This document shows, piece after piece, positions 10,468 to 19,440 of a stretch of DNA of 37,587 nt. This DNA is from a virus, in the IMG/VR virus record IMGVR_UViG_3300050120_000149, positions 1 through 37,587 of that record. The stretch is one strand, 5' to 3'. The stretch's first letter is position 1. Each line of letters opens with the position of its first letter. The position numbers and the translations under genes are program-made. The notes beneath the pieces were generated by a model. That model ran no database searches. It was given only the letters and a program-made list of their open reading frames with translations, and was not told where the DNA came from.

Positions 10468-11238
10468 TTAGCTCGCTTTCTTTCCCATAGGATTTAGTTT
10501 TTGGTTCAGATTGCAAACCGCGTCGCAGTACGCCTTGCAGCGCCACACTTCGCGGTTACCATCTTGAGGGTCGATCGGGGGAGCCGGTTCGGGGGCTTCG
10601 GTCGCAGCGGCCACGCGGCGGATGCGCTCGGCGGCAATGTCTACCCGGTCGCGCCAGGAACGCTTGCCAGGGCCGTCGTTGAGGTCCGGCACGTCATCGA
10701 GGTGGAACCAATGCGCCTTCTGCTGGAGAATGTTCCCGCCGAACCCAATGCAGATCACCAGTTCGCAGAACACCTCACAGCCGAGCGCCATCGCGTAGGA
10801 CGCGGACTTGAGCGCGTGCCCGTACTTCCAGTCGGCAAACTTCGAGGCCGTCGTGGTCGGATCAATGCAGGCCACGACTTCGCCCGAGGCTTTGTCCGTA
10901 AGCAAGAAGTCCGGATGCCCGGAAATGCCGTCTAGAAACGTCTGTGGCGCACGGGAGACGGCGTAGGGGTATTCTGACCCCTGAGCCGTCACAAAGTCGC
11001 TCAGAGCCATCCAGACGCGTTCTTCGTAGGCATGGCCGCGCTCGAACGCGCTGAACGTGCCCATGGTGCGCGGGATGGTCGGCTCGCCGGCAAGGCGTTG
11101 GTGCAGCGCGAAGTCGCACGAATGGAGGTCGGAGGCCGAGAGCTTGCGCGGGTTGCGGCCATCTTCTTCGCTATCGCCGAGCACGATGGAAACGTGATGC
11201 TCCCAGACTGCATCGAGGTCAATCAGAGGCGTGGTCAT
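10468..11238 (-). CDS. Cas4/RecB-like nuclease with probable Fe-S cluster
   Basis: A 256-residue product. Visible in order: Cys41 (LHSCDFALHQ), an H-motif region RGHAYEERV (~69), GHPDFLL with Asp110, VVACIDPTTT with Asp126, a motif-IV-like HALKSASYAMAL, and a C-terminal cluster CKAYCDAVC (Cys234, 238, 242). One N-terminal plus three C-terminal Cys is the 4Fe-4S layout of Cas4/AddB nucleases. The usual E-x-K is replaced by D-P-T, so activity may be altered. The start at 11238 overlaps the upstream TGA by 4 bases. Recombination with the SSB-tail protein is the likely setting. Confidence 0.7.
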   Translation of the reverse strand: MTTPLIDLDAVWEHHVSIVLGDSEEDGRNPRKLSASDLHSCDFALHQRLAGEPTIPRTMGTFSAFERGHAYEERVWMALSDFVTAQGSEYPYAVSRAPQTFLDGISGHPDFLLTDKASGEVVACIDPTTTASKFADWKYGHALKSASYAMALGCEVFCELVICIGFGGNILQQKAHWFHLDDVPDLNDGPGKRSWRDRVDIAAERIRRVAAATEAPEPAPPIDPQDGNREVWRCKAYCDAVCNLNQKLNPMGKKAS

Positions 11239-11399
11239 TCGCGCACTCCATCTTCTTCGCGGTACTCGTCGCAGACGCAATCGGCATGACCCATGCAGAA
11301 GCCGAGAAACGTCCGGTTGCTCGGGCTGTAGCTGAGATGTCCAGAGTTGCTATGCTCGTGGTCGGTCTTATCGTGGCCGCATTTGCACGGATCGTTCAT
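11235..11399 (-). CDS. Cys/His-rich zinc miniprotein, 54 residues
   Basis: The product starts MNDPCKCGHDKTDHEHSNSG and continues FLGFCMGHADCVCDEY. The order C-x-C-G-H-x5-H-x-H ... C-x-x-x-x-x-C-x-C matches a small zinc-binding phage protein type seen in many tailed phages. ATGA overlaps link it to both neighbours. It may be a regulator or host-binding factor; the precise function is unknown. Confidence 0.65.
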   Translation of the reverse strand: MNDPCKCGHDKTDHEHSNSGHLSYSPSNRTFLGFCMGHADCVCDEYREEDGVRE

Positions 11400-11716
11400 G
11401 CTTGCGCTTCGATCTCTGCAAGGCGCTTCGCAAGCTTCATGCGATACATCCCAACCTCGTTATTGAAGTCTGTGACCATCTCGTTCAGGTCGCGTTCGGC
11501 TTCGGCCAGCTCGAACACGGAGAGATCGTGCCATTGCACCGAGGTGCGGCCAGTCCGTGAGTAGCTGGGCATATCCCAGGTTCCCGGACGGAACGTGAAG
11601 GCTTCGGGGGTGCGCTCGGGGACCTCGAAGGGATCGACTTGGTGGCGGCATCTCCCAAAACCAGCAGCGATGCACTCGTCATCGTGTTCGAGGGCGATTT
11701 CCGAAAAGTGCGACAT
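11396..11716 (-). CDS. Hypothetical early protein, 106 residues
   Basis: The product starts MSHFSEIALEHDDECIAAGF and continues GRCRHQVDPFEVPERT. It has a C-terminal helix of heptad character (SVFELAEAERDLNEMVTDF; RMKLAKRLAEIEAQA). The start is at the 1-base TAATG overlap with the RHH gene. The longer frame up to 11902 would cover the repressor in another frame and is rejected. Function is unknown; a coiled-coil partner protein is plausible. Confidence 0.6.
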   Translation of the reverse strand: MSHFSEIALEHDDECIAAGFGRCRHQVDPFEVPERTPEAFTFRPGTWDMPSYSRTGRTSVQWHDLSVFELAEAERDLNEMVTDFNNEVGMYRMKLAKRLAEIEAQA

Positions 11717-11874
11717 TATGCTTCTTTCTTGCCCGTAGGCGTCCAACGTGTTGCAGCTTGCGACATGACGCGCACGACGATCTCGGAGATGCTCCGATCT
11801 TCCAATGCCGCCCGGTCTTTGAACTTGTCTTTGAGCGGTTGCGGCAGGCGAATCGTTAGGTTGGCGTCTTGCAT
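11716..11874 (-). CDS. Ribbon-helix-helix (Arc/CopG-type) repressor
   Basis: A 52-residue protein: MQDANLTIRLPQPLKDKFKD, then RAALEDRSISEIVVRVMSQA. The strand NLTIRLP, helix 1 and the S-I-S-E-I-V turn into helix 2 are the RHH fold of Arc/CopG/MetJ repressors, which dimerise and put the strand in the DNA major groove. It is the first gene of the minus operon and divergent from the plus early unit. A promoter with TTGACG and TAAGAT lies so close (6 bases between -10 and ATG) that the mRNA should be leaderless. Likely role: autoregulated early repressor. Confidence 0.85.
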   Translation of the reverse strand: MQDANLTIRLPQPLKDKFKDRAALEDRSISEIVVRVMSQAATRWTPTGKKEA

Positions 11875-11926
11875 GAATATATCTTAGTGCATTGTCTTGC
11901 AATCCGTCAAGGGGTGTGAGACAATG
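11875..11926. promoter_or_regulatory. Divergent control region: RHH promoter and inverted-repeat operator
   Basis: Minus-strand promoter: -35 TTGACG (plus 11905-11910), 18-base spacer, -10 TAAGAT (plus 11881-11886), then 6 bases to the repressor ATG. A perfect inverted repeat CATTGTCT (11890-11897) and AGACAATG (11919-11926) brackets the -35. One arm lies in the spacer, the other upstream and over the plus-strand start at 11924. The word GGTGTGAGACAATG (11913-11926) recurs inverted at 14422-14435. The operator role is inferred. Confidence 0.65.
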
Positions 11927-12196
11927 TATTCAGAAAGCGAGGCCAAGGCCATGAACAACACGATCAACCTCTACATCACGGACAAGACGGGCAAGAAGTT
12001 TTGGAACACGAGCTGCGGCGCGGGCTACTCGTCCGGCGAACGCCACAATCTCAAACAGCACCTCGCCCGTATCAAAGAGGGCCACAAGGCGTACGCGAAG
12101 TGCGGCGTTGATCGTGAGACGGCTCGCCTGGTTGAGCCCGCCGACGAATTGGACATGTCGCCCGAAGCCATGATGAAGTGGTTGGCGGAGGCGTGA
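11924..12196 (+). CDS. Early hypothetical protein, operator-proximal
   Basis: A 90-residue product starting MYSESEAKAMNNTINLYITD and ending SPEAMMKWLAEA. A beta-strand region (TINLYITDKTGKKFWNTSC) is followed by basic helices (HNLKQHLARIKEGHKAY). The ATG at 11924 is inside the operator arm; an internal ATG at 11951 (MNNTINLY) follows GAGG and would give 81 residues, so the start is uncertain. First gene of the plus early unit. Function is unknown; the two Cys are far apart. Confidence 0.6.
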   Translation: MYSESEAKAMNNTINLYITDKTGKKFWNTSCGAGYSSGERHNLKQHLARIKEGHKAYAKCGVDRETARLVEPADELDMSPEAMMKWLAEA

Positions 12197-12552
12197 GCAC
12201 CCGCCAAACGGGCAACCGCCATGAAAACTCCGTGATGGAGATGGCAGAGAAACTGGGTTACGCTTGTTTTGCATCTCGCGGCTCCCGGGGGGCTGCTGAC
12301 GTTCTTTGTTTCGAGATGCATGGAAACGATATTGCTCGGGACGGCTTGGTGCCGCTAGTGATCCAAGTCGGAACTGCTAACAAGGCCATTGCCCGGACGC
12401 TTATTGAGGTAGCGCAAGCGCCTCGCCCGATCGGTTCTTTGCCAATCGTGGCTCGCCGGCACAAGCACAAGACCTCGAAGCGAATCTCCTGGACCTGGCA
12501 TACGGAAGCCGGGAAGTTCGACTCACTCGCTGCTGCCTTGGAGGGCAAATGA
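12193..12552 (+). CDS. Holliday-junction-resolvase-like (PD-(D/E)XK fold) protein
   Basis: A 119-residue product with a GTG start inside GTGA. The pattern TGNRHENSVMEMAEKLGYAC, ASRGSRGAADVL, then LVIQVGT matches archaeal Hjc/phage resolvase-like nucleases: Glu11, the S-R-G-x-x-D loop with Asp36, then a strand that normally ends E/Q-V-K. Here it reads Q58-V-G60, so the catalytic Lys is missing or displaced. A DNA-junction nuclease or a structural relative without activity are both possible. It lies in the early unit with zinc-ribbon proteins. Confidence 0.6.
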   Translation: MSTRQTGNRHENSVMEMAEKLGYACFASRGSRGAADVLCFEMHGNDIARDGLVPLVIQVGTANKAIARTLIEVAQAPRPIGSLPIVARRHKHKTSKRISWTWHTEAGKFDSLAAALEGK

Positions 12553-12746
12553 TGGAACCAAAGCTAGAAGTGATTCCGGCCTACGGATCAACGAACGCAT
12601 GTGAGTTTACCAAAGATGGAATCTGCATAGGCCACCGGACGCACATCTCAGAGCATTCGATGATTGGCACCTCGCAGACCATGACTCGTGAAGAGGCCAA
12701 GAGACGTTTCCCCGAGTTGGCCGCAAGGATTGACGCGCTGCCCTAA
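12549..12746 (+). CDS. Hypothetical early protein, 65 residues
   Basis: The product starts MMEPKLEVIPAYGSTNACEF and ends RRFPELAARIDALP. The first half is polar with two Cys and two His (KDGICIGHRTH), the second half helical. The ATG overlaps the previous stop (ATGATG). It is followed by a structured non-coding leader. Function is unknown. Confidence 0.5.
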   Translation: MMEPKLEVIPAYGSTNACEFTKDGICIGHRTHISEHSMIGTSQTMTREEAKRRFPELAARIDALP

Positions 12747-12763
12747 TGGGGAGTAGACTGTCT

Positions 12764-12856
12764 GTGGACGACGGGGGGCACCCCGCCATCCGGTACTGTA
12801 GCGGCTCTGGCCGCGATAGCTACAGGTCGCACCAAGAGCCGCGCAGAGTCGTCCAC
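12764..12856 (+). ncRNA. Structured leader RNA with pseudoknot potential
   Basis: No convincing ORF lies between 12747 and 12900. A 9-bp closing stem GTGGACGAC (12764-12772) / GTCGTCCAC (12848-12856) encloses a GGGG/CCCC hairpin (12773-12784). It also encloses two crossing helices: CTGTA (12796-12800) with TACAG (12821-12825), and GCGGCTCT (12801-12808) with AGAGCCGC (12835-12842). These form an H-type pseudoknot or two exclusive folds. A third option, GCGG (12801-12804) with CCGC (12811-12814), competes. A terminator-like hairpin follows at once. A cis-regulatory leader or small RNA is inferred. Confidence 0.6.
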
Positions 12857-12864
12857 CCATTTGG

Positions 12865-12900
12865 ACCCCTGTTCGGTAACACCGAATGGGGGTTTCTCTT
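12865..12900 (+). terminator. Terminator/attenuator hairpin abutting the next start codon
   Basis: TTCGGT (12872-12877) and ACCGAA (12881-12886) pair with loop AAC, extended by CCCC (12866-12869) with GGGG (12888-12891) around a small internal loop. The U-rich TTTCTCTT ends right before the ATG at 12901. The 3' arm also holds the only SD-like G-run for that gene, so the hairpin could both terminate transcription and hide the ribosome site. Confidence 0.6.
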
Positions 12901-13056
12901 ATGCACTTACGTCCTCAAGATGTTCTCAGTCTTACGGTCAACGTGGCCTGTAAGTTCTGTCCTTGGGTCGGCGTCTATCCCGTTGGCGAGCACGAAGAGG
13001 CTGCCAAAGACGGGGCAAAGCACATCTTCAGCGCGCACCCAGAATTGGCGAAGTGA
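12901..13056 (+). CDS. C2H2-like zinc miniprotein under leader control
   Basis: A 51-residue product: MHLRPQDVLSLTVNVACKFC, then PWVGVYPVGEHEEAAKDGAK, HIFSAHPELAK. C-x2-C is followed by His residues at suitable spacing for a classical zinc finger (C-K-F-C ... H-I-F-S-A-H). It begins immediately after a terminator-like hairpin and has no obvious promoter of its own, so it should depend on readthrough or release of the hairpin. The stop overlaps the next GTG start (GTGA). Confidence 0.6.
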   Translation: MHLRPQDVLSLTVNVACKFCPWVGVYPVGEHEEAAKDGAKHIFSAHPELAK

Positions 13057-13400
13057 GCGGTAACGCCAAGCTCGGCGCGGACGTTACGTCCTTCTTCGCC
13101 GGAGTCGTCAAACTCGGAGCGCTTGCCCGTGCCCAAGGCCATTTCGACGCGGAGGGCGACCCGATCTGGTCTATCCCGATCTGGGAGGCGTTCTGCCGTG
13201 GTGCTCGTGCCTACAAGCACGCAGGTTCGTTCTACGGCCCGGGGCTCGTCAATACGGTCCATGAGGTCGAGGAGATGATCGCGGACCAATACGACGCTGC
13301 GTCCATTCATGCGGTGCTTAAGGGCTTTGAGTACGAACGTGAGGCCAAGAACCGCCGGCGCGATCCGCACCAGATTCATTACGCGGAGCTTGGCTCTTGA
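13053..13400 (+). CDS. Hypothetical phage protein (DUF5664-like appearance)
   Basis: A 115-residue product starting MSGNAKLGADVTSFFAGVVK at a GTG in a GTGA overlap. Helical, with PIWSIPIWEAFCRGARAYKH, GLVNTVHEVEEMIADQYDAA and a basic end YEREAKNRRRDPHQ. The alternation of acidic helices with a D-x-x-D-like pattern recalls small dATP/dGTP-pyrophosphohydrolase-like phage proteins, but I cannot confirm this. It is coupled to the next gene through TTGA. Confidence 0.55.
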   Translation: MSGNAKLGADVTSFFAGVVKLGALARAQGHFDAEGDPIWSIPIWEAFCRGARAYKHAGSFYGPGLVNTVHEVEEMIADQYDAASIHAVLKGFEYEREAKNRRRDPHQIHYAELGS

Positions 13401-13534
13401 TTCTTCACACGAAACGAACAGCTCGGAGGCGTTGTCCTCAATGCGGCTCGTGGCTCGTGACGGATGGCGCGGGCCTCAAATGCCCGCAGTCCGGTTGCTC
13501 GTATCGTCGGGGGCCAAAGCCTATCGCGAAGTAA
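13397..13534 (+). CDS. Zinc-ribbon miniprotein, TTG start
   Basis: A 45-residue product starting MILHTKRTARRRCPQCGSWL and continuing LKCPQSGCSYRRG. CPxCG ... C-P-x-x-G-C is a typical treble-clef/zinc-ribbon pair. The TTG start overlaps the previous stop (TTGA). The same frame stays open for another 70 codons after its TAA. Probable nucleic-acid binding; the specific role is unknown. Confidence 0.6.
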   Translation: MILHTKRTARRRCPQCGSWLVTDGAGLKCPQSGCSYRRGPKPIAK

Positions 13535-13747
13535 CGCCACGAGGCGAAGCAGCGTAAAAGGGCGGCGCTCTACGGAGCGGCTCGTCCGGTTAGCAGCCGG
13601 GCGGACTTTGAAGCTACGCAACCGCCATGTCTGAAGCATTGGCGGATCAATACAAAACGCGGTCGTCTTAACCCAACGACTGCGGCACGACGATGCTACG
13701 CGTTGACCTGGTTTTACTTCATGGGGCCTTTGTTCCAGCGAGCGTAG
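13535..13747 (+). other. Open frame without start codon, in frame after the zinc-ribbon stop
   Basis: After the TAA at 13532-13534 the same frame runs 70 codons to TAG at 13745-13747. It reads RHEAKQRKRAALYGAARPVS, later ATQPPCLKHWRINTKRG and RRCYALTWFYFMGPLFQRA. There is no ATG, GTG or TTG near its beginning. It could be readthrough of the TAA, a remnant of a longer gene broken by a nonsense change, or chance. An opposing frame (13852 to 13379) is also open, so coding cannot be settled by eye. Confidence 0.3.
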
Positions 13748-13748
13748 C

Positions 13749-13850
13749 GAACCATACGGATACCACACTGAGGTGCCGGGGTGTCGCGCTCCCGATTCAT
13801 CGTAGCGAAAGCTATGGGGGTCGGGGGCGCACTCTGTCCAGCCGTATTCC
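13749..13850. ncRNA. Candidate structured RNA with GAAA-capped hairpin
   Basis: No start codon with a plausible gene is seen here. A 10-bp stem GCGCTCCCGA (13786-13795) / TCGGGGGCGC (13821-13830), with one G-U pair, encloses CGTAGC-GAAA-GCTATG (13801-13816), a GNRA-capped hairpin. ATACGG (13754-13759) pairs with CCGTAT (13842-13847) as a possible outer closing stem. The strand is uncertain; the plus strand is favoured because the G-U pairs work there. Confidence 0.35.
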
Positions 13851-13884
13851 ATCCTGGGATTAGGGGTATCTCGGACAAACGAAG

Positions 13885-13910
13885 AACCCCGCTCCTTGAA
13901 AAGCGGGGTT
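13885..13910. terminator. Bidirectional terminator between convergent early units
   Basis: A perfect 9-bp stem AACCCCGCT (13885-13893) / AGCGGGGTT (13902-13910) with an 8-base loop. It lies between the end of the plus early unit and the stop at 13918 of the minus unit, where both transcripts converge. The flanking T-runs are short, but the position and stem support termination in both directions. Confidence 0.75.
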
Positions 13911-13917
13911 CAATCGG

Positions 13918-14121
13918 TTAGGGCTTTGGCTTACGCCGGTATTCGTTCGCTCGCTTACCACAGGCTTCACACGTTACTCTTGGTACGCCTAGAGGCTCAT
14001 CAGGGGCGATTATTGGCTTACCACACGAGAGGCAACGCCCTTCCTCGCGGCGCTTGGCGGTTTCGCGCTCGCGTTTGGTGAGCGGTTCGTCAGGCATTAT
14101 GTGCGCGCCATTCCGTCTCAT
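13918..14121 (-). CDS. Zinc-ribbon protein with basic N-terminal helix
   Basis: A 67-residue product. A charged helix (LTKRERETAKRREEG) precedes CLSCGKPIIAPDEPLG and TCEACGKRANEYRRKPKP, a four-Cys zinc ribbon with basic tail, typical of small DNA- or RNA-binding proteins. The start at 14121 (MRRNGAH) or 14097 (MPDEPLTK) cannot be separated; the latter resembles common family starts. It is the second gene of the RHH-controlled minus unit and ends at the bidirectional terminator. Confidence 0.65.
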   Translation of the reverse strand: MRRNGAHIMPDEPLTKRERETAKRREEGRCLSCGKPIIAPDEPLGVPRVTCEACGKRANEYRRKPKP

Positions 14122-14130
14122 ACGGTTCCA

Positions 14131-14373
14131 TCAAACGGCCCTCACTTCCAGCACGACCGGCTTGAGTTCGTGGAAATACGAGCGCCCCTGTCCGTTCGAT
14201 ACCGTCTTAGCGCGCTCGGTGACGATCCGCTCGATTGAGCCGATAACGCCCGTGTTGCGTTCGAGGCTCGCAAGCGATTCTTTGGCGCGCTTCAGCGTTT
14301 TGCAGGGCGCGCCGTCAACCCACGTTCCCGGGGCAACGAGGCGAAACGTCACAACCTTGACGCGATCTTCCAT
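14131..14373 (-). CDS. Hypothetical early protein behind the second operator
   Basis: An 80-residue product starting MEDRVKVVTFRLVAPGTWVD. Beta-strands at both ends (VKVVTFRLV; SYFHELKPVVLEVRAV) flank helices (LKRAKESLASLERN), an alpha/beta mini-fold. AAAGGA lies 8 bases before the ATG, a good ribosome site. A promoter overlapped by RHH-type operator sequence lies 50-78 bases upstream, so it should be co-regulated with the repressor. Function is unknown. Confidence 0.6.
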   Translation of the reverse strand: MEDRVKVVTFRLVAPGTWVDGAPCKTLKRAKESLASLERNTGVIGSIERIVTERAKTVSNGQGRSYFHELKPVVLEVRAV

Positions 14374-14418
14374 GCCTGAGGTCCTTTCTCAGTCGGCCGG
14401 CAAGTCGCCGTTCCGTGA

Positions 14419-14451
14419 GCACATTGTCTCACACCATCATACAATGTGCAA
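14419..14451 (-). promoter_or_regulatory. Minus-strand promoter overlapped by RHH-type operator
   Basis: Minus strand -35 TTGCAC (plus 14446-14451), exactly 17 bases, -10 GACAAT (plus 14423-14428). A perfect inverted repeat GCACATTGT (14419-14427) / ACAATGTGC (14441-14449) covers both elements. CATTGTCTCACACC (14422-14435) is the reverse complement of the word at 11913-11926 by the RHH gene. Repressor control of both units is the simplest reading. Confidence 0.65.
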
Positions 14452-14499
14452 GCGAATCAAGCTCAACTCAGGCAACCTTTACAATACACACACGCAAAG

Positions 14500-14568
14500 G
14501 TTTCATGTGGAACACTCGCTAACGCTCGCGCTCGTAAGAGGGACGGGTGAACTGTTTCACGTGAAACC
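14500..14568. promoter_or_regulatory. Chromosomal-type parS site plus degenerate second copy
   Basis: TGTTTCACGTGAAACC at 14553-14568 matches the bacterial parS consensus TGTTTCACGTGAAACA at 15 of 16 positions, with a perfect 14-bp palindrome at 14554-14567. GTTTCATGTGGAAC at 14500-14513 matches 12 of 14 and lies 54 bp away. parS is the ParB/Spo0J CTPase loading site. No ParB-like gene is seen in this genome, so host ParB would be the ligand. Function is inferred from the motif only. Confidence 0.7.
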
Positions 14569-14793
14569 GAGCAACGCACACCGCATAACGCATACCGTGA
14601 ACACGATACACCGCAATGCGTCATGCTGCTAGCTGCGAACGTTGCTGCTCGCTGCAGGCGCTTACACCATACCTTATGGGGAGGCCCTTTACCCTTACCG
14701 CTCTGCTGCGTAGGGACCAAACTCAACAAAATTATTATTTGGAGGAGGTACTCACCTCAGGTCACTCCCCAATTATAACATTTTTGTAAATAG

Positions 14794-14840
14794 CCACTTT
14801 TGTAGAAATACCAGTCCACTTGTAGTGGAGCGGTCCACTT
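14794..14840. repeat. Three CCACTT repeats, iteron-like spacing
   Basis: CCACTT starts at 14794, 14816 and 14835, about two helical turns apart, each followed by T-rich bases and GTAG/GTGG. The middle copy forms the inverted repeat CCACTTGTAGTGG. The block lies in AT-rich sequence just before the late operon. An initiator, activator or late-promoter regulator could bind here; no cognate protein is identified. Confidence 0.45.
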
Positions 14841-14904
14841 ATCGTAGGATACTGTTAAGTATTCTTTACCAACAGAAATGGTTCGTTGGTTGTAAAATAG
14901 GGGT

Positions 14905-15042
14905 GTGATCGTTAAGGGTTTTTACATCAAGTACATTGGTGATGTGTGCCGTCCGTGTTTGCGGCGTTCGCCGGTGCTGCAATGGGATACGATTCTGAAG
15001 GCTCGTCTTAGCTGCGTGCTGTGCGGGGGCCGGGTTGGATGA
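14905..15042 (+). CDS. Zinc-ribbon miniprotein at head of late operon
   Basis: A 45-residue product with a GTG start: MIVKGFYIKYIGDVCRPCLR, then WDTILKARLSCVLCGGRVG. VCRPC and SCVLC form a four-Cys zinc ribbon. The stop overlaps the aminotransferase start (ATGA), so it is translated with the sugar cassette. The start is uncertain because AGGGG lies very close to the GTG. As first gene after the control island it could be a late regulator; that is inference. Confidence 0.5.
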   Translation: MIVKGFYIKYIGDVCRPCLRRSPVLQWDTILKARLSCVLCGGRVG

Positions 15043-16244
15043 GGGTCGAGGTTGCTCAGCAGATCACGGATCACGTTGAGGCCGACTATCTCAGCCAAGT
15101 CGTAGCCTCTGGACGCTACGCTGCCGGTCCCTGGACGGCTCGCTTCGAGCGGGAGTTTGCTGACTGGTGGGGCGTACGCTCGTGCCTCTTGGTCAACAGC
15201 GGCAGCAGCGCTAACCTCTTAGCCATCTCGGCCTTGATGTCGCCCGCGCTGGGTGATCGTGCGCTGAAGCCGGGTGACGAGGTGATCACAGCGGCGTGTG
15301 GGTTCCCGACGACGGTGAACCCGATTGTTCAGAACGGCTTAGTGCCAGTGTTTATCGACTGTGAACTGGAGACGTACAATGCCGATCTCAGCCAACTGGA
15401 AGCGGCTCTCGGCCCTCGCTCACGAGCGGTTATTCTTGCCCATACCTTGGGAAACCCATACGATGCCGGACGGCTCAAAAGCTTCTGTGATGAGCATGAT
15501 CTCTTCTTCATCGAAGATTGTTGTGACGCGGTTGGTGCGACCTGGGCAGGCCAAAGAGTCGGTACGTTCGGAGATTTATCTACAGTCTCGTTCTACCCCG
15601 CCCACCACATGAGCATGGGCGAAGGCGGCGCTGTCCTCAGCGGCACCCGCTTTCGCAAGATCGTGGAAAGCTACCGCGACTGGGGCCGAGACTGCTGGTG
15701 CGCTCCCGGCTGCGACGATACGTGCGGCAAGCGGCTGGGGTGGCAGTTGGGGACGCTGCCCGAGGGGTACGATCACAAATACACCTACGCGCATCGGGGC
15801 TACAACCTCAAGGCCACGGAGTTCTCCGCGGCGCTGGGATGCGCGCAGCTGCGGAAGGTCGATGGGTTCATTGAGAAGCGGCAAGAGAACGCTGGGCATT
15901 TACGGATGTGGATCGACAAGCGAGTGCCGTGGCTAAAAGTTCCGGCGTGGTCAAACTGGGCGAGTTGGTTCGGTCTCCCTCTCCGAGTCATGCCCGGGGC
16001 TCCCATGACCCGTGACGCCCTCTGCGCCTATCTGTGGTCTCATGGTATCGCGACCCGCCTGCTCTTTGCCGGGAACATCACCCGGCACCCGGCGTATGCC
16101 GATGTAAACTACCGCGTGGTGGGAGAGTTACGTAACTCGGACGAGGTGATGAACTCGGTCTTTTGGATTGGCGTTCATCCCGGCCTCGGGGTGGCCGAGT
16201 TGCAGTACGTCGCAGAAACCTTGGCCGGATGCGCGTCCTCGTAA
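15039..16244 (+). CDS. rfbH: RfbH/E1-type NDP-4-keto-6-deoxyhexose 3-dehydrase
   Basis: A 401-residue DegT/DnrJ-family PLP-type enzyme. The usual cofactor Lys site reads SFYPAHHMSMGEGG, with His at 189-190, the hallmark of the dehydrase E1 (DdhC/RfbH), which uses PMP. The [2Fe-2S] cysteines are seen at DCWCAPGCDDTCG (Cys219, 221, 225, 229), then GYDHKYTYAHRGYNLKAT as in E1. E1 removes the C3 hydroxyl of CDP-4-keto-6-deoxyglucose on the way to 3,6-dideoxysugars, with electrons from a reductase (E3) not found here. The ATG at 15039 (ATGA) is preferred to the GTG at 15021. Confidence 0.9.
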   Translation: MRVEVAQQITDHVEADYLSQVVASGRYAAGPWTARFEREFADWWGVRSCLLVNSGSSANLLAISALMSPALGDRALKPGDEVITAACGFPTTVNPIVQNGLVPVFIDCELETYNADLSQLEAALGPRSRAVILAHTLGNPYDAGRLKSFCDEHDLFFIEDCCDAVGATWAGQRVGTFGDLSTVSFYPAHHMSMGEGGAVLSGTRFRKIVESYRDWGRDCWCAPGCDDTCGKRLGWQLGTLPEGYDHKYTYAHRGYNLKATEFSAALGCAQLRKVDGFIEKRQENAGHLRMWIDKRVPWLKVPAWSNWASWFGLPLRVMPGAPMTRDALCAYLWSHGIATRLLFAGNITRHPAYADVNYRVVGELRNSDEVMNSVFWIGVHPGLGVAELQYVAETLAGCASS

Positions 16245-16915
16245 CGGGAGCCACGGGCTTTCTCGGCCCGTACCTCGTTGCGGCCCTCAAGGCCGCTAAC
16301 AACGAGGTCGTTGGCCTTGGCCGCGGTCAGTCACCAGAAGGCAACTTCGATGCACTCGTTCACGCCTCGCTAGAGCCGATGGCTCACTATCTCGCACATG
16401 TGCAAGGACCGTCCGTTCTCTTGTCCTCGGGAGCCGTCGTTACACACGGCAGCGGCTACCTGGACGGCTACGCCGACACCAAGCGTATTCAAGAAGTCGA
16501 GGCATTCTCCGAGGGCATGCAAATCGCACGCATCTTCTCAGTCCTGGGACCTGGGATCGAGAAGCACGAACACATGGCAGCATCCCAGTTCCTCGCACAA
16601 GCGAAGGCTGGTGGCCCGGTCGTCGTTAAGGCCGGAGCCATTCGCTCGTATCTCTACCCCACCGATGTCGCATCAGCCGTCCTAACCATCATGGAACTCG
16701 GCGACGGCCAGCCGTACGACGTTGGTGGCGAAGAACCGATGAACGTCGCGGACCTTGGTGAGCGGATCGGGCGAGCGGCTAAGGTCGCGGTGTACCGGGC
16801 AGAGATCATTGGCGCGATTGATACCTACCTCCCGGACCTTACGCGCCTCAAGGCGCTCGGTTGGAAGCAAACGATCAGCACAGAAGAAGCCATTCGAAGA
16901 ACGCTCGATGCCTGA
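16229..16915 (+). CDS. Compact NAD(P)-dependent SDR, epimerase/reductase type
   Basis: A 228-residue Rossmann enzyme overlapping the dehydrase gene by 16 bases. MRVLVTGATGFLGPYLV holds the G-x-x-G-x-x-G nucleotide motif (7-13). Ser67 and Y81-x3-K85 (YADTK) are the catalytic residues, and RSYLYPTDVASAVL plus YDVGGEEPMNVADL are typical of sugar-nucleotide epimerases and reductases. It is ~70-80 residues shorter than usual; the region between the first beta-alpha unit and the active site is reduced. It would reduce or epimerise the keto-sugar made by the dehydrase. Confidence 0.82.
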   Translation: MRVLVTGATGFLGPYLVAALKAANNEVVGLGRGQSPEGNFDALVHASLEPMAHYLAHVQGPSVLLSSGAVVTHGSGYLDGYADTKRIQEVEAFSEGMQIARIFSVLGPGIEKHEHMAASQFLAQAKAGGPVVVKAGAIRSYLYPTDVASAVLTIMELGDGQPYDVGGEEPMNVADLGERIGRAAKVAVYRAEIIGAIDTYLPDLTRLKALGWKQTISTEEAIRRTLDA

Positions 16916-17486
16916 GCCCGAGTACGTCACCTTCCGCATGGCGCGCACCGCGAACGACGGCACCATCACCAGCCGCGGGGAACGTGTTGCCGGCGTGCTG
17001 TTCACCGTCCGGCGAGCGAAGTGGGTCCGAGGCTACCTCCAGGCAATTGCCGAAGGGCTCACCGGGAAAGCCGCGGCGTTAGCTGGTGGCCGCTACGGTG
17101 GTATTGGAGGCTCGACGCACTTGCCCGATTTGGTCGTGACCCGCAAGATGGAGACGTTCCTTGCGAACCCGGACGTGCAGCAAGCCATTCGGAGCGTGTA
17201 CGAGGAAGTGGGGTTCTCGCTCGAAGATGCGGTGAAGCTCCATCTGCGGCACATCAAAGGCGACATCTCACACGAAGAAGTCACGAAAGACGGAGACGTC
17301 GTGGAAGTCAAACACGCCCCGAACTACCCTGCCCTCAAGGACTGGCTCGCTGTAGCAACGCCGAGAGAGCCGAAGCGCGTGAATGTCCTCACGGCTCGGG
17401 TGGGCATCGCACGAGAGTCGCGCACGGATGGCTCGCCACCGGCAATGGCCGCACGAGCAATTGGAGAAATCATCGATGCGACCTGA
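16908..17486 (+). CDS. Probable small terminase subunit
   Basis: A 192-residue product starting MPEPEYVTFRMARTANDGTI. The segment WVRGYLQAIAEGLTGKAAAL, then VVTRKMETFLANPDVQQAIR, resembles the DNA-recognition helices of small terminases (sites x-A-A-x-x-A-G, then L-x-x-P-x-V-x-x-A-I). The C-terminus is basic and Ala-rich. It lies two to three genes before the large terminase, with sugar genes on both sides. A replication- or packaging-related DNA-binding protein is the alternative. It overlaps the SDR stop by 8 bases. Confidence 0.5.
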   Translation: MPEPEYVTFRMARTANDGTITSRGERVAGVLFTVRRAKWVRGYLQAIAEGLTGKAAALAGGRYGGIGGSTHLPDLVVTRKMETFLANPDVQQAIRSVYEEVGFSLEDAVKLHLRHIKGDISHEEVTKDGDVVEVKHAPNYPALKDWLAVATPREPKRVNVLTARVGIARESRTDGSPPAMAARAIGEIIDAT

Positions 17487-17817
17487 CGAACTCTTTGAAT
17501 CAATCGGTCGTGGCATCGTCAAACAACTCTTAGCGCCTGAGGCCGCTGCGAATGATCCCGCAGCGATGCTCCCGGCTAAGGCCGAGCCTTCGGGGGTCGT
17601 CGTTCCCCCGGAGGCATCGGTTATTCCAGGCGAGGTTCCGCAGCCGTCATTCGATCAAGTGGACGAGCCGCTGCCCGGATTTGAGGGCATTCCGCGCGCC
17701 ACGCTCAAGCAAATGCAAGACGCAATGGAGAAGATCACTCGCGGTCAGGGACCGCCGCCTGGAATGTACGATAAGGACGACCCAAACAACCCCGTCAACT
17801 CGGTACCGCTAAGTTGA
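17476..17817 (+). CDS. Pro-rich acidic hypothetical protein
   Basis: A 113-residue product starting MRPDELFESIGRGIVKQLLA. It is acidic and Pro-rich in the middle (PPEASVIPGEVPQPSFDQVD), with a short helix (LKQMQDAMEKITRG) and a low-complexity end (PPPGMYDKDDPNNP), so it is probably largely disordered. It overlaps the terminase-like gene by 11 bases and the ThDP gene start by 4. A virion or packaging accessory role fits; no family is recognised. Confidence 0.5.
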   Translation: MRPDELFESIGRGIVKQLLAPEAAANDPAAMLPAKAEPSGVVVPPEASVIPGEVPQPSFDQVDEPLPGFEGIPRATLKQMQDAMEKITRGQGPPPGMYDKDDPNNPVNSVPLS

Positions 17818-18332
17818 CGGTCGCCGATGAAGTCGCCGCGTATCTCGCGGAGCGAGGAGTTACATGTGTCTTCGGGATTATCGGGGCGGGTAACATGTCA
17901 CTCTTTGACGCCATCGATCGGCTGGGCCGGACCACAGTTGTATGTTGCCACCACGAACAAGCCGCGGTCATGGCTGCCGCAGCATACTATCGCGTCAGCG
18001 GAGTGGTTACGGCGGCGCTTGTTACAACTGGAGCAGGAAGCAGTAACGCGCTCACAGGTGTCCTCTCAGCCTACATGGATTCAATACCATTGGTGGTACT
18101 CGCCGGCAATGAGGCTTCTACTCGGCGAACGATTGGACGGGCGCGCGGTGTTCAAGGCTACGACTCGGTTGCCGTAGCCGCACCGATGACGAAACGGGCG
18201 CACCGTGTTGAATTCGGACACGGAAGGATGTCGGCGTGCTTGTTCGATAGTTTTCTGACGGCGGAGTGTGGTCGCCCGGGCCCGATCTGGATAGAGATTC
18301 CGATGGATGTGGCGGCAAGTGAAGCAGCTTAG
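17814..18332 (+). CDS. ThDP-dependent enzyme, N-terminal (PYR) domain
   Basis: 172 residues: MTVADEVAAYLAERGVTCVF, then GIIGAGNMSLFDAI, and CCHHEQAAVMAAAAYYRVSG with the catalytic Glu48 that activates ThDP. TTGAGSSNALTGVLSAYMDS and GPIWIEIPMDV complete an acetolactate-synthase-type PYR domain. It ends at the domain border; the rest lies in the next gene in another frame with 26 bases of overlap. Near an E1-type dehydrase, the closest known role is YerE, which adds a two-carbon branch to CDP-4-keto-3,6-dideoxyglucose (yersiniose route). The start is TTG inside the previous stop. Confidence 0.78.
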   Translation: MTVADEVAAYLAERGVTCVFGIIGAGNMSLFDAIDRLGRTTVVCCHHEQAAVMAAAAYYRVSGVVTAALVTTGAGSSNALTGVLSAYMDSIPLVVLAGNEASTRRTIGRARGVQGYDSVAVAAPMTKRAHRVEFGHGRMSACLFDSFLTAECGRPGPIWIEIPMDVAASEAA

Positions 18333-19440
18333 AGACGCGCAACGCCCATTGCTCTTGCTGGGCCACGGCATCCGGCTTGCTGGCGCGGTCGATCTCATCG
18401 ACCCGTTGCTCGACCATCTCGGCATCCCCGCTATCGTTAGCTGGGCCGGGAAGGATATGAGCGATCATCCGCTCATTTACGGTTCGGCAGGCGTCTACGG
18501 CGGCCGTGCGGCGAATCACATCGTGCAGCAGGCCGACTTCATTCTCTGCATCGGTACGCGCCTTGCGATTCCGCAAACGGGCTACGACATCACGAAGTTC
18601 GCGCCCGATGCAAAGATCGTTGTCGTGGACATCGACCCGGAAGAAGCGCACAAGTTCATGGAACACGAACGGTTCACAGGGATTGTCGCGGATGCGAAAG
18701 AGTTCATGCTTGGACTCATGGAGCCGTACCCCATCGACGGCTTCAACCACGATTGGATGGGTTACATCTACGATACGGTGGAGCGGTTCCCCGTCATCGA
18801 GGAGTGCCACGCGGACCCGCCCGGCTTCATCAGCCCGTACCTGTTCCTCAAGCGTCTCGAACAACACCTCAAACCCGATGCCGTGATCGTAACCGATAGC
18901 GGTGGAGCCTTACTCTGTTCGCATCAAGTCATGACGCTGAAGCCGCCGCAGCGGCTCATAACGACCACCGGACTTGGCGAAATGGGCTTCGGGTTGCCTG
19001 GAGCAATCGGTGCATCGTTTGCACGGAACAAAGGCGAGGTAATCTGCCTAAACACGGACGGCAGCATGATGCTGAACCTGCAAGAGCTACAGACGATAGC
19101 GCATCACAACCTGCCGATTAAGATCATCGTGTTCTCGAACGACGGATACGGGATGATTCGCCACAGTCAGAAGGCGATGGGGCTCGCCAAGACGGGGAGT
19201 GACCGCGAAGGCGGCGTGTCGTGCCCGGACTTCCGTGCGATTGGAAATGCGTTTGGCATTCCGTCGATGTTGACGCTTGAGGGAGCCGCAGACTGTCTTC
19301 CGTGGCTGATGCGGTGTAAGGGGCCCGCGTTGCTTGAAGTTCACTGTTCGCCCGAACAGCAGTATCTTCCGAAGCTCATGGGCTCACCCGGATTTTCGCC
19401 GGCACTTGATGAGATTAGTCCGCTCTTGGTCCGCGCATGA
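18307..19440 (+). CDS. ThDP-dependent enzyme, central and PP domains
   Basis: 377 residues. The central domain begins QLRDAQRPLLLLGHGIRLAG and reads IVVVDIDPEEAHKF. The PP domain has TTGLGEMGFGLPGAIGAS, then LNTDGSMMLNLQELQTIAHH and IVFSNDGYGM; the Mg/ThDP motif is T-D-G (250-252) with N278-D279 instead of G-D-G and N-N. Together with the preceding gene it makes one YerE/acetolactate-synthase-like enzyme of normal total length. Whether it is a natural two-subunit form, a frameshifted gene or a sequencing error is open. A weak AGAG precedes the ATG. Confidence 0.78.
   Translation: MWRQVKQLRDAQRPLLLLGHGIRLAGAVDLIDPLLDHLGIPAIVSWAGKDMSDHPLIYGSAGVYGGRAANHIVQQADFILCIGTRLAIPQTGYDITKFAPDAKIVVVDIDPEEAHKFMEHERFTGIVADAKEFMLGLMEPYPIDGFNHDWMGYIYDTVERFPVIEECHADPPGFISPYLFLKRLEQHLKPDAVIVTDSGGALLCSHQVMTLKPPQRLITTTGLGEMGFGLPGAIGASFARNKGEVICLNTDGSMMLNLQELQTIAHHNLPIKIIVFSNDGYGMIRHSQKAMGLAKTGSDREGGVSCPDFRAIGNAFGIPSMLTLEGAADCLPWLMRCKGPALLEVHCSPEQQYLPKLMGSPGFSPALDEISPLLVRA

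Follow-up and report, generated by a model that had tools for sequence, protein, structure and literature searches.

A 137-nt stretch of a tailed-phage genome (positions 12764-12900, plus strand) folds into a structure whose stability is not due to chance. It is best explained as a discrete sRNA unit of the phage, an orphan about 130 nt long, which would act in trans and end in a terminator insulating the next small genes; we put the probability of this reading at roughly 45%. The window, that is, the whole stretch of DNA analyzed, comprises the entire record IMGVR_UViG_3300050120_000149 (37,587 bases), and its matches in PHROG include the terminase large subunit (19437), the portal (24663), and the major capsid protein (28490).

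The minimum-energy fold of the 137-nt RNA was computed at -77.5 kcal/mol, compared with a mean of -50.4 kcal/mol for 200 shuffled sequences (z -7.0), and none of 2000 dinucleotide shuffles proved as stable (z -6.56). Turner 2004 and Andronescu 2007 parameters (-67.67 with the latter) led to an identical nested fold. In this favored architecture, stem P1 closes a four-way junction nearly without linkers, and the terminator hairpin stands as an independent element (Table 1). A fixed-grid structure scan of the window (1250 windows, both strands, 25 shuffles each) ranked windows over the RNA second, fifth, and eleventh, the first rank being taken by 10921 on the plus strand. Since a fixed grid is off register, eight loci were rerun with an equal search of register and length (60 shuffles). 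The RNA then gave the strongest value (z -7.34), while the seven other loci reached -4.95 or weaker, with that at 10921 falling to -4.54. The shuffle results, together with the top register-tuned value, place the fold of 12764-12900 beyond chance, and the structure is real. An earlier claim, made in the initial annotation of this DNA, of an RNA of roughly 130 nt, strongly structured and with a 9-bp outer stem, thus appears to be borne out by fold energies, and the stem itself is present as P1.

The same annotation placed crossing helices (CTGTA/TACAG and GCGGCTCT/AGAGCCGC) and a competing GCGG/CCGC pair inside the outer stem. All of these strands occur in the sequence: CTGTA/TACAG extends to the 7-bp CTGTAGC/GCTACAG (12796-12802/12819-12825), GCGGCTCT/AGAGCCGC lies at 12801-12808/12835-12842, and the competing pair appears as a GCGGC/GCCGC hairpin, a folding intermediate that growing-chain folding prefers until position 12842 is transcribed, after which P4 replaces it. 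The 7-bp crossing complement and this early preference for another hairpin would suit a true H-type pseudoknot or an RNA that is bistable between pseudoknot and hairpin. Against it, the crossing helix is missing from the minimum-energy and centroid folds, being unable to coexist with the base and tip of P4; CTGTA/TACAG occupies the base and the loop of that hairpin and has to compete with a much more stable helix, in a comparison of nested-only energies, since ViennaRNA ignores pseudoknots and gives no direct pseudoknot energy. When the flanking sequence was shuffled with the long stem given, 1840 of 5000 shuffles produced crossing helices of 5 bp or longer, a length thus expected by chance; 138 of 5000 produced one of at least 7 bp, a mild signal. 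The full-length helices, moreover, have two bases in common, which leaves almost no crossing loop. Because of the chance-level frequency and the clash with P4 (-28.0 kcal/mol), we take the crossing helix as a minor or chance feature and reject the pseudoknot as the main, working fold; a pseudoknotted or bistable RNA is highly improbable.

Table 1. Features in and around the structured RNA (window coordinates).
Feature	Position	Strand	Remarks
Upstream gene, 65 aa	12549-12746	+	3' end contains the -35 box
Sigma-70-like promoter, TTGACG-18-TAGACT	12730-12759	+	9/12 consensus matches
Four-way-junction RNA domain (93 nt)	12764-12856	+	-54.3 kcal/mol; z -5.59; 0/2000 shuffles as stable
P1, outer stem, 9 bp, GTGGACGAC/GTCGTCCAC	12764-12772/12848-12856	+	pair probability at least 0.986
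P2, small hairpin	12773-12776/12781-12784	+	nested fold
P3, small hairpin	12785-12787/12792-12794	+	nested fold
P4, long interrupted hairpin	12796-12846	+	-28.0 kcal/mol; nested fold and growing-chain folding
P4 helices	12796-12799/12843-12846, 12801-12808/12835-12842, 12809-12810/12832-12833, 12813-12817/12826-12830	+	
P4 apical loop, 8 nt, AGCUACAG	12818-12825	+	
Alternative crossing helix, CTGTAGC/GCTACAG	12796-12825	+	at most transient or minor
Intrinsic-terminator-like hairpin	12863-12895 (12863-12877/12881-12895)	+	15 bp including 4 G-U wobbles
Shine-Dalgarno-like GGGGG of the 12901 gene	12888-12892	+	duplex -10.1 kcal/mol; in the 3' arm of the terminator
U-rich tail, TTTCTCTT	12893-12900	+	abuts the start codon at 12901
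Gene for a 51-aa protein, CxxC and HxxxxH	12901-13056	+	zinc-binding-like; no family match
Gene for a 115-aa protein	13053-13400	+	start overlaps the 12901 stop; last plus-strand gene before convergent genes

Promoter-like and terminator-like elements lie in register with the folded body. Transcription from the promoter-like site, which is absent from the initial annotation, is expected to start at about 12764-12768, i.e., at the 5' end of P1. The window holds 12 such sites on its two strands, and this is the only plus-strand one listed within 11000-15500; a site would end in any given 7-nt slot with a probability of about 0.0011, a figure that serves as a guide only, as the slot was picked post hoc. 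Having such a site directly before it makes an RNA acting in trans, as had been suggested for this locus, plausible. At the opposite end, a hairpin with a U-rich end had been described before the 12901 ATG, and it is found there as 15 bp followed by a T-rich tail; folded alone, 12857-12900 has a z of -3.9. A pattern scan for terminators left the hairpin at 12863-12895 unlisted, probably since maximal pairing uses up TTT. The G-run resembling a Shine-Dalgarno sequence for the 12901 gene lies, as also claimed, within this hairpin, where its GGGGG is the best predicted Shine-Dalgarno among 27 positions (a set including 12214 and 12943, which are not accepted starts) and has an unpaired probability below 0.01. 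The 12901 frame scores 12.06 bits over 51 codons in coding statistics, which is inside the in-frame range.

These elements suggest how the unit might work. A host sigma-70-type promoter would start the RNA, which would fold into a compact four-helix junction and stop at the terminator hairpin to give a product of about 130 nt; we infer the existence of this RNA in cells, its start and end, and any target. Action in trans, the most likely mode, could proceed through the CCAUUU linker and the 8-nt loop of P4, the only sizeable exposed elements, or through binding to a protein of the host or the phage. In cis, the pair of small genes that follows may be insulated and silenced by the terminator, since the first of them has its Shine-Dalgarno sequence in the 3' arm. 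A promoter-like site, a closed body, a terminator-like end, and independent domains are together fitted best by an sRNA gene. Counting against it are the promoter's match to consensus at only 9 of 12 positions, the imperfect U tract downstream of the hairpin, the small number of nucleotides exposed for base pairing, and the placement of a hairpin on the 12901 Shine-Dalgarno, which is the arrangement classically seen in a cis-acting leader.

The overlap of the terminator with the ribosome site of the next gene makes such a leader or attenuator the main rival. In it, the 12730 promoter would drive 12901-13400, the junction would sense a signal, and the hairpin combining terminator and Shine-Dalgarno would be the output. 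The terminator abuts the ATG, and the Shine-Dalgarno within it is predicted to be the strongest among those listed. The order of a junction-type 5' domain followed by a terminator hairpin that holds the Shine-Dalgarno of a downstream gene resembles riboswitch and ribosomal-protein leaders; those differ from the present RNA, which has no mutually exclusive antiterminator pairing among nested folds and no known aptamer match. When the terminator pairs were forbidden, the junction stayed the same and the tail became single-stranded (-55.1 vs. -77.5 kcal/mol), and constrained folding revealed no antiterminator or anti-sequestering partner among nested folds. The earlier suggestion that alternative folds act as a switch finds no backing here, given that refolding keeps the junction and yields no competing nested pairing. 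Lacking a nested structure that would join the junction to the terminator or Shine-Dalgarno, the RNA is unlike typical riboswitch leaders, and a riboswitch with an antiterminator was rejected. Nor does any Rfam family, riboswitch or other, reach its gathering score, weak matches only being returned. That the junction folds independently of the terminator is expected for an RNA body with a terminator rather than for an aptamer with an expression platform; coupling could still arise through ligand-induced tertiary effects, a bound protein, alternative folds with pseudoknots, or ribosomes translating the RNA.

The last of these routes corresponds to a variant of the leader in which ribosomes would re-initiate at ATG 12746, translate the RNA, and melt both hairpins. 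An open frame of 105 codons on the plus strand (12746-13063) does begin where its ATG overlaps the stop codon of the upstream gene (TAATG), and it extends across RNA and terminator. Its codon statistics are non-coding, however, and by estimate an open frame of such length is not rare at the G+C content of the window; a coding frame across the RNA was rejected on the same statistics. Over the RNA region, the three plus-strand frames score -3.1, -5.4, and -24.1 bits, compared with +9.3 bits for the 5th percentile of true 51-codon pieces, so the region is non-coding by codon statistics in all three. On balance, a cis-acting leader seems somewhat unlikely.

The location among tightly packed same-strand small genes, as well as the long interrupted hairpin P4, would also agree with a passive intercistronic element, namely an RNase III-type site or stability/insulation hairpins in a longer early mRNA originating in the divergent region at 11900, in which case no separate RNA gene would exist. 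A promoter-like site in register and a closed four-way junction nevertheless exceed what a processing hairpin needs, and we consider this explanation unlikely. A structured RNA that directly precedes a terminator-like hairpin in a group of small genes is likewise reminiscent of HK022 put, a phage RNA structure beside a terminator. In a put-like cis antiterminator, the junction would modify RNA polymerase and cause readthrough of the adjacent terminator. The put RNA consists of two simple stem-loops, an architecture different from that found here, and a put-like function is very unlikely.

Taken further, the trans-acting sRNA reading would define a new class: a self-standing four-way-junction RNA acting in trans on the host, whose terminator would also serve as the ribosome gate for a small zinc-finger-like protein and balance RNA release against production of the protein. 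This extension is doubtful, on our estimate improbable. If the hairpin does gate both the RNA end and 12901 translation, the phage would have a highly economical means of control.

The RNA at 12764-12900 is an orphan, with no relative detected in the collections searched. Searches with blastn found nothing for the RNA among 50,697 phage records, nor for the 2-kb early region among phage records, and among 72,556 plasmid records the RNA gave only a 28-nt match in two records, taken as chance. A search of IMG/VR with the major capsid protein returned just two related records, G001 and G002 (64-65% identity), as did a search with an alignment query, and no relative of this protein was found in genome contigs. 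These two records have structural genes in common with the window; the early region holding the RNA is not shared. DNA-level and single-sequence covariance-model searches of both found no RNA (best score 11.4 bits), in comparison with 117 bits when the model recovers its own RNA. Two 16-nt patterns hit 6 loci in IMG/VR and one 17-nt pattern hit 15 loci in genome contigs, none of them with a model match. The covariance model also found nothing in the five genomes behind pattern loci (0/5), in genomes from the phylum (0/398) and the class (0/385) of the Allorhizobium locus, and it gave one match in 296 genomes from the phylum of the Sinomonas locus (27.6 bits, E 0.047); these samples overlap partly, and some genomes recur. 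This match was rejected as a homologue and taken as chance, as it lies inside predicted ORFs and many pairs are broken. Since the model comes from one sequence, only fairly close homologues are detectable, exact-word scans combined with it miss distant ones, and the searched collections may omit near-identical records. Phage small RNAs are still few and difficult to find via homology; this candidate is noticeable in a single genome through the combination of fold, promoter-like site, and terminator-like hairpin.

Protein searches gave a similar picture. No phage matched the 12901 and 12214 proteins in tblastn, the 12549 protein had matches in three records at chance level (E 2-4), neither the capsid nor the portal protein had a match among phage records, and peptide-pattern scans of IMG/VR for the 12901, 13053, and 12214 proteins and TerL yielded no confirmed relative. 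Structured stretches of G001 and G002 (scanned in the first 17 kb only of L004 and L006) were rejected as equivalents of the RNA. One of them, L004:2451-2728 of G001, is intergenic and strongly structured; it includes a terminator-like hairpin, precedes a promoter-like sequence, and has a fold that differs from that of the RNA. At one end of G001 (L005:19513-19685) lie genes for tRNA-Pro and tRNA-His, and no tRNA genes were found in the window. Antisense action on the phage's own genes was rejected as well, the longest exact complement being 13 nt (15532-15544; BLAST E 0.059, near chance).

Among known phage RNAs, sRNAs with varied targets are an established kind, according to PMC12197685. The trans-acting PreS, VpdS of VP882, and AgvB, reviewed there, are like the present RNA in being short non-coding RNAs between small phage genes, and the likeness would extend to the own promoter and intrinsic terminator proposed here. 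PreS of lambda and VpdS differ in binding Hfq (PMC12197685), whereas almost all of the RNA studied here is base-paired and no relative was detected for it. For c4 RNA, that text indicates possible pairing via loops, and c4 of P1/P7 and sar of P22 share with our RNA the character of a structured phage RNA potentially pairing through loops. They differ in that no ant-like target gene was recognized here and no Rfam match attained its gathering score. Rfam includes a c4 model. A further likeness to P22, which also encodes Arc, is an Arc-like repressor gene about 0.9 kb from the RNA. This gene (11716-11874, minus strand) starts directly after a promoter-like TTGACG-18-TAAGAT (11910-11881) and is divergent from the plus-strand small-gene operon containing the RNA. 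The best weak Rfam match, to the Pseudomonas sRNA P17, spans junction and terminator (20.8 bits, E 0.0023 over 251 bases); identity with P17 was rejected in view of its gathering score of 45, a whole-window E of 0.34, and many non-pairing positions, and the match is taken as chance. A literature search found no paper on the P17 sRNA.

Two palindromes in a long intergenic stretch (14499-14514 and 14553-14568, 38 nt apart) match the bacterial parS consensus TGTTTCACGTGAAACA at 13 and 15 of 16 positions, and shuffled windows contained 0 or 1 site with at least 13 matches (20 shuffles). This pair, and the existence of RNA-based prophage origins (PMC7157519), would fit a role for the RNA in the replication of a plasmid-like prophage of the kind seen in extrachromosomal mycobacteriophages. 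On the other side, no ParB or Rep was recognized among the ORFs scanned, partition-labelled PHROG matches are weak and concern the Arc-like protein only, and the parS-like sites lie 1.7 kb off; a replication RNA is extremely unlikely. Farther along the window, a sugar-modification cassette (15039-19440) encodes a DegT aminotransferase family protein, whose phage matches include CDP-4-dehydro-6-deoxyglucose 3-dehydratase, an epimerase-type SDR, and an acetolactate synthase-like TPP enzyme, a set reminiscent of branched-sugar (yersiniose-type) synthesis. The TPP enzyme occupies two overlapping frames, 17814-18332 with the N-terminal domain and 18307-19440 with the middle and C-terminal domains, which represent either a natural split or a frameshift.
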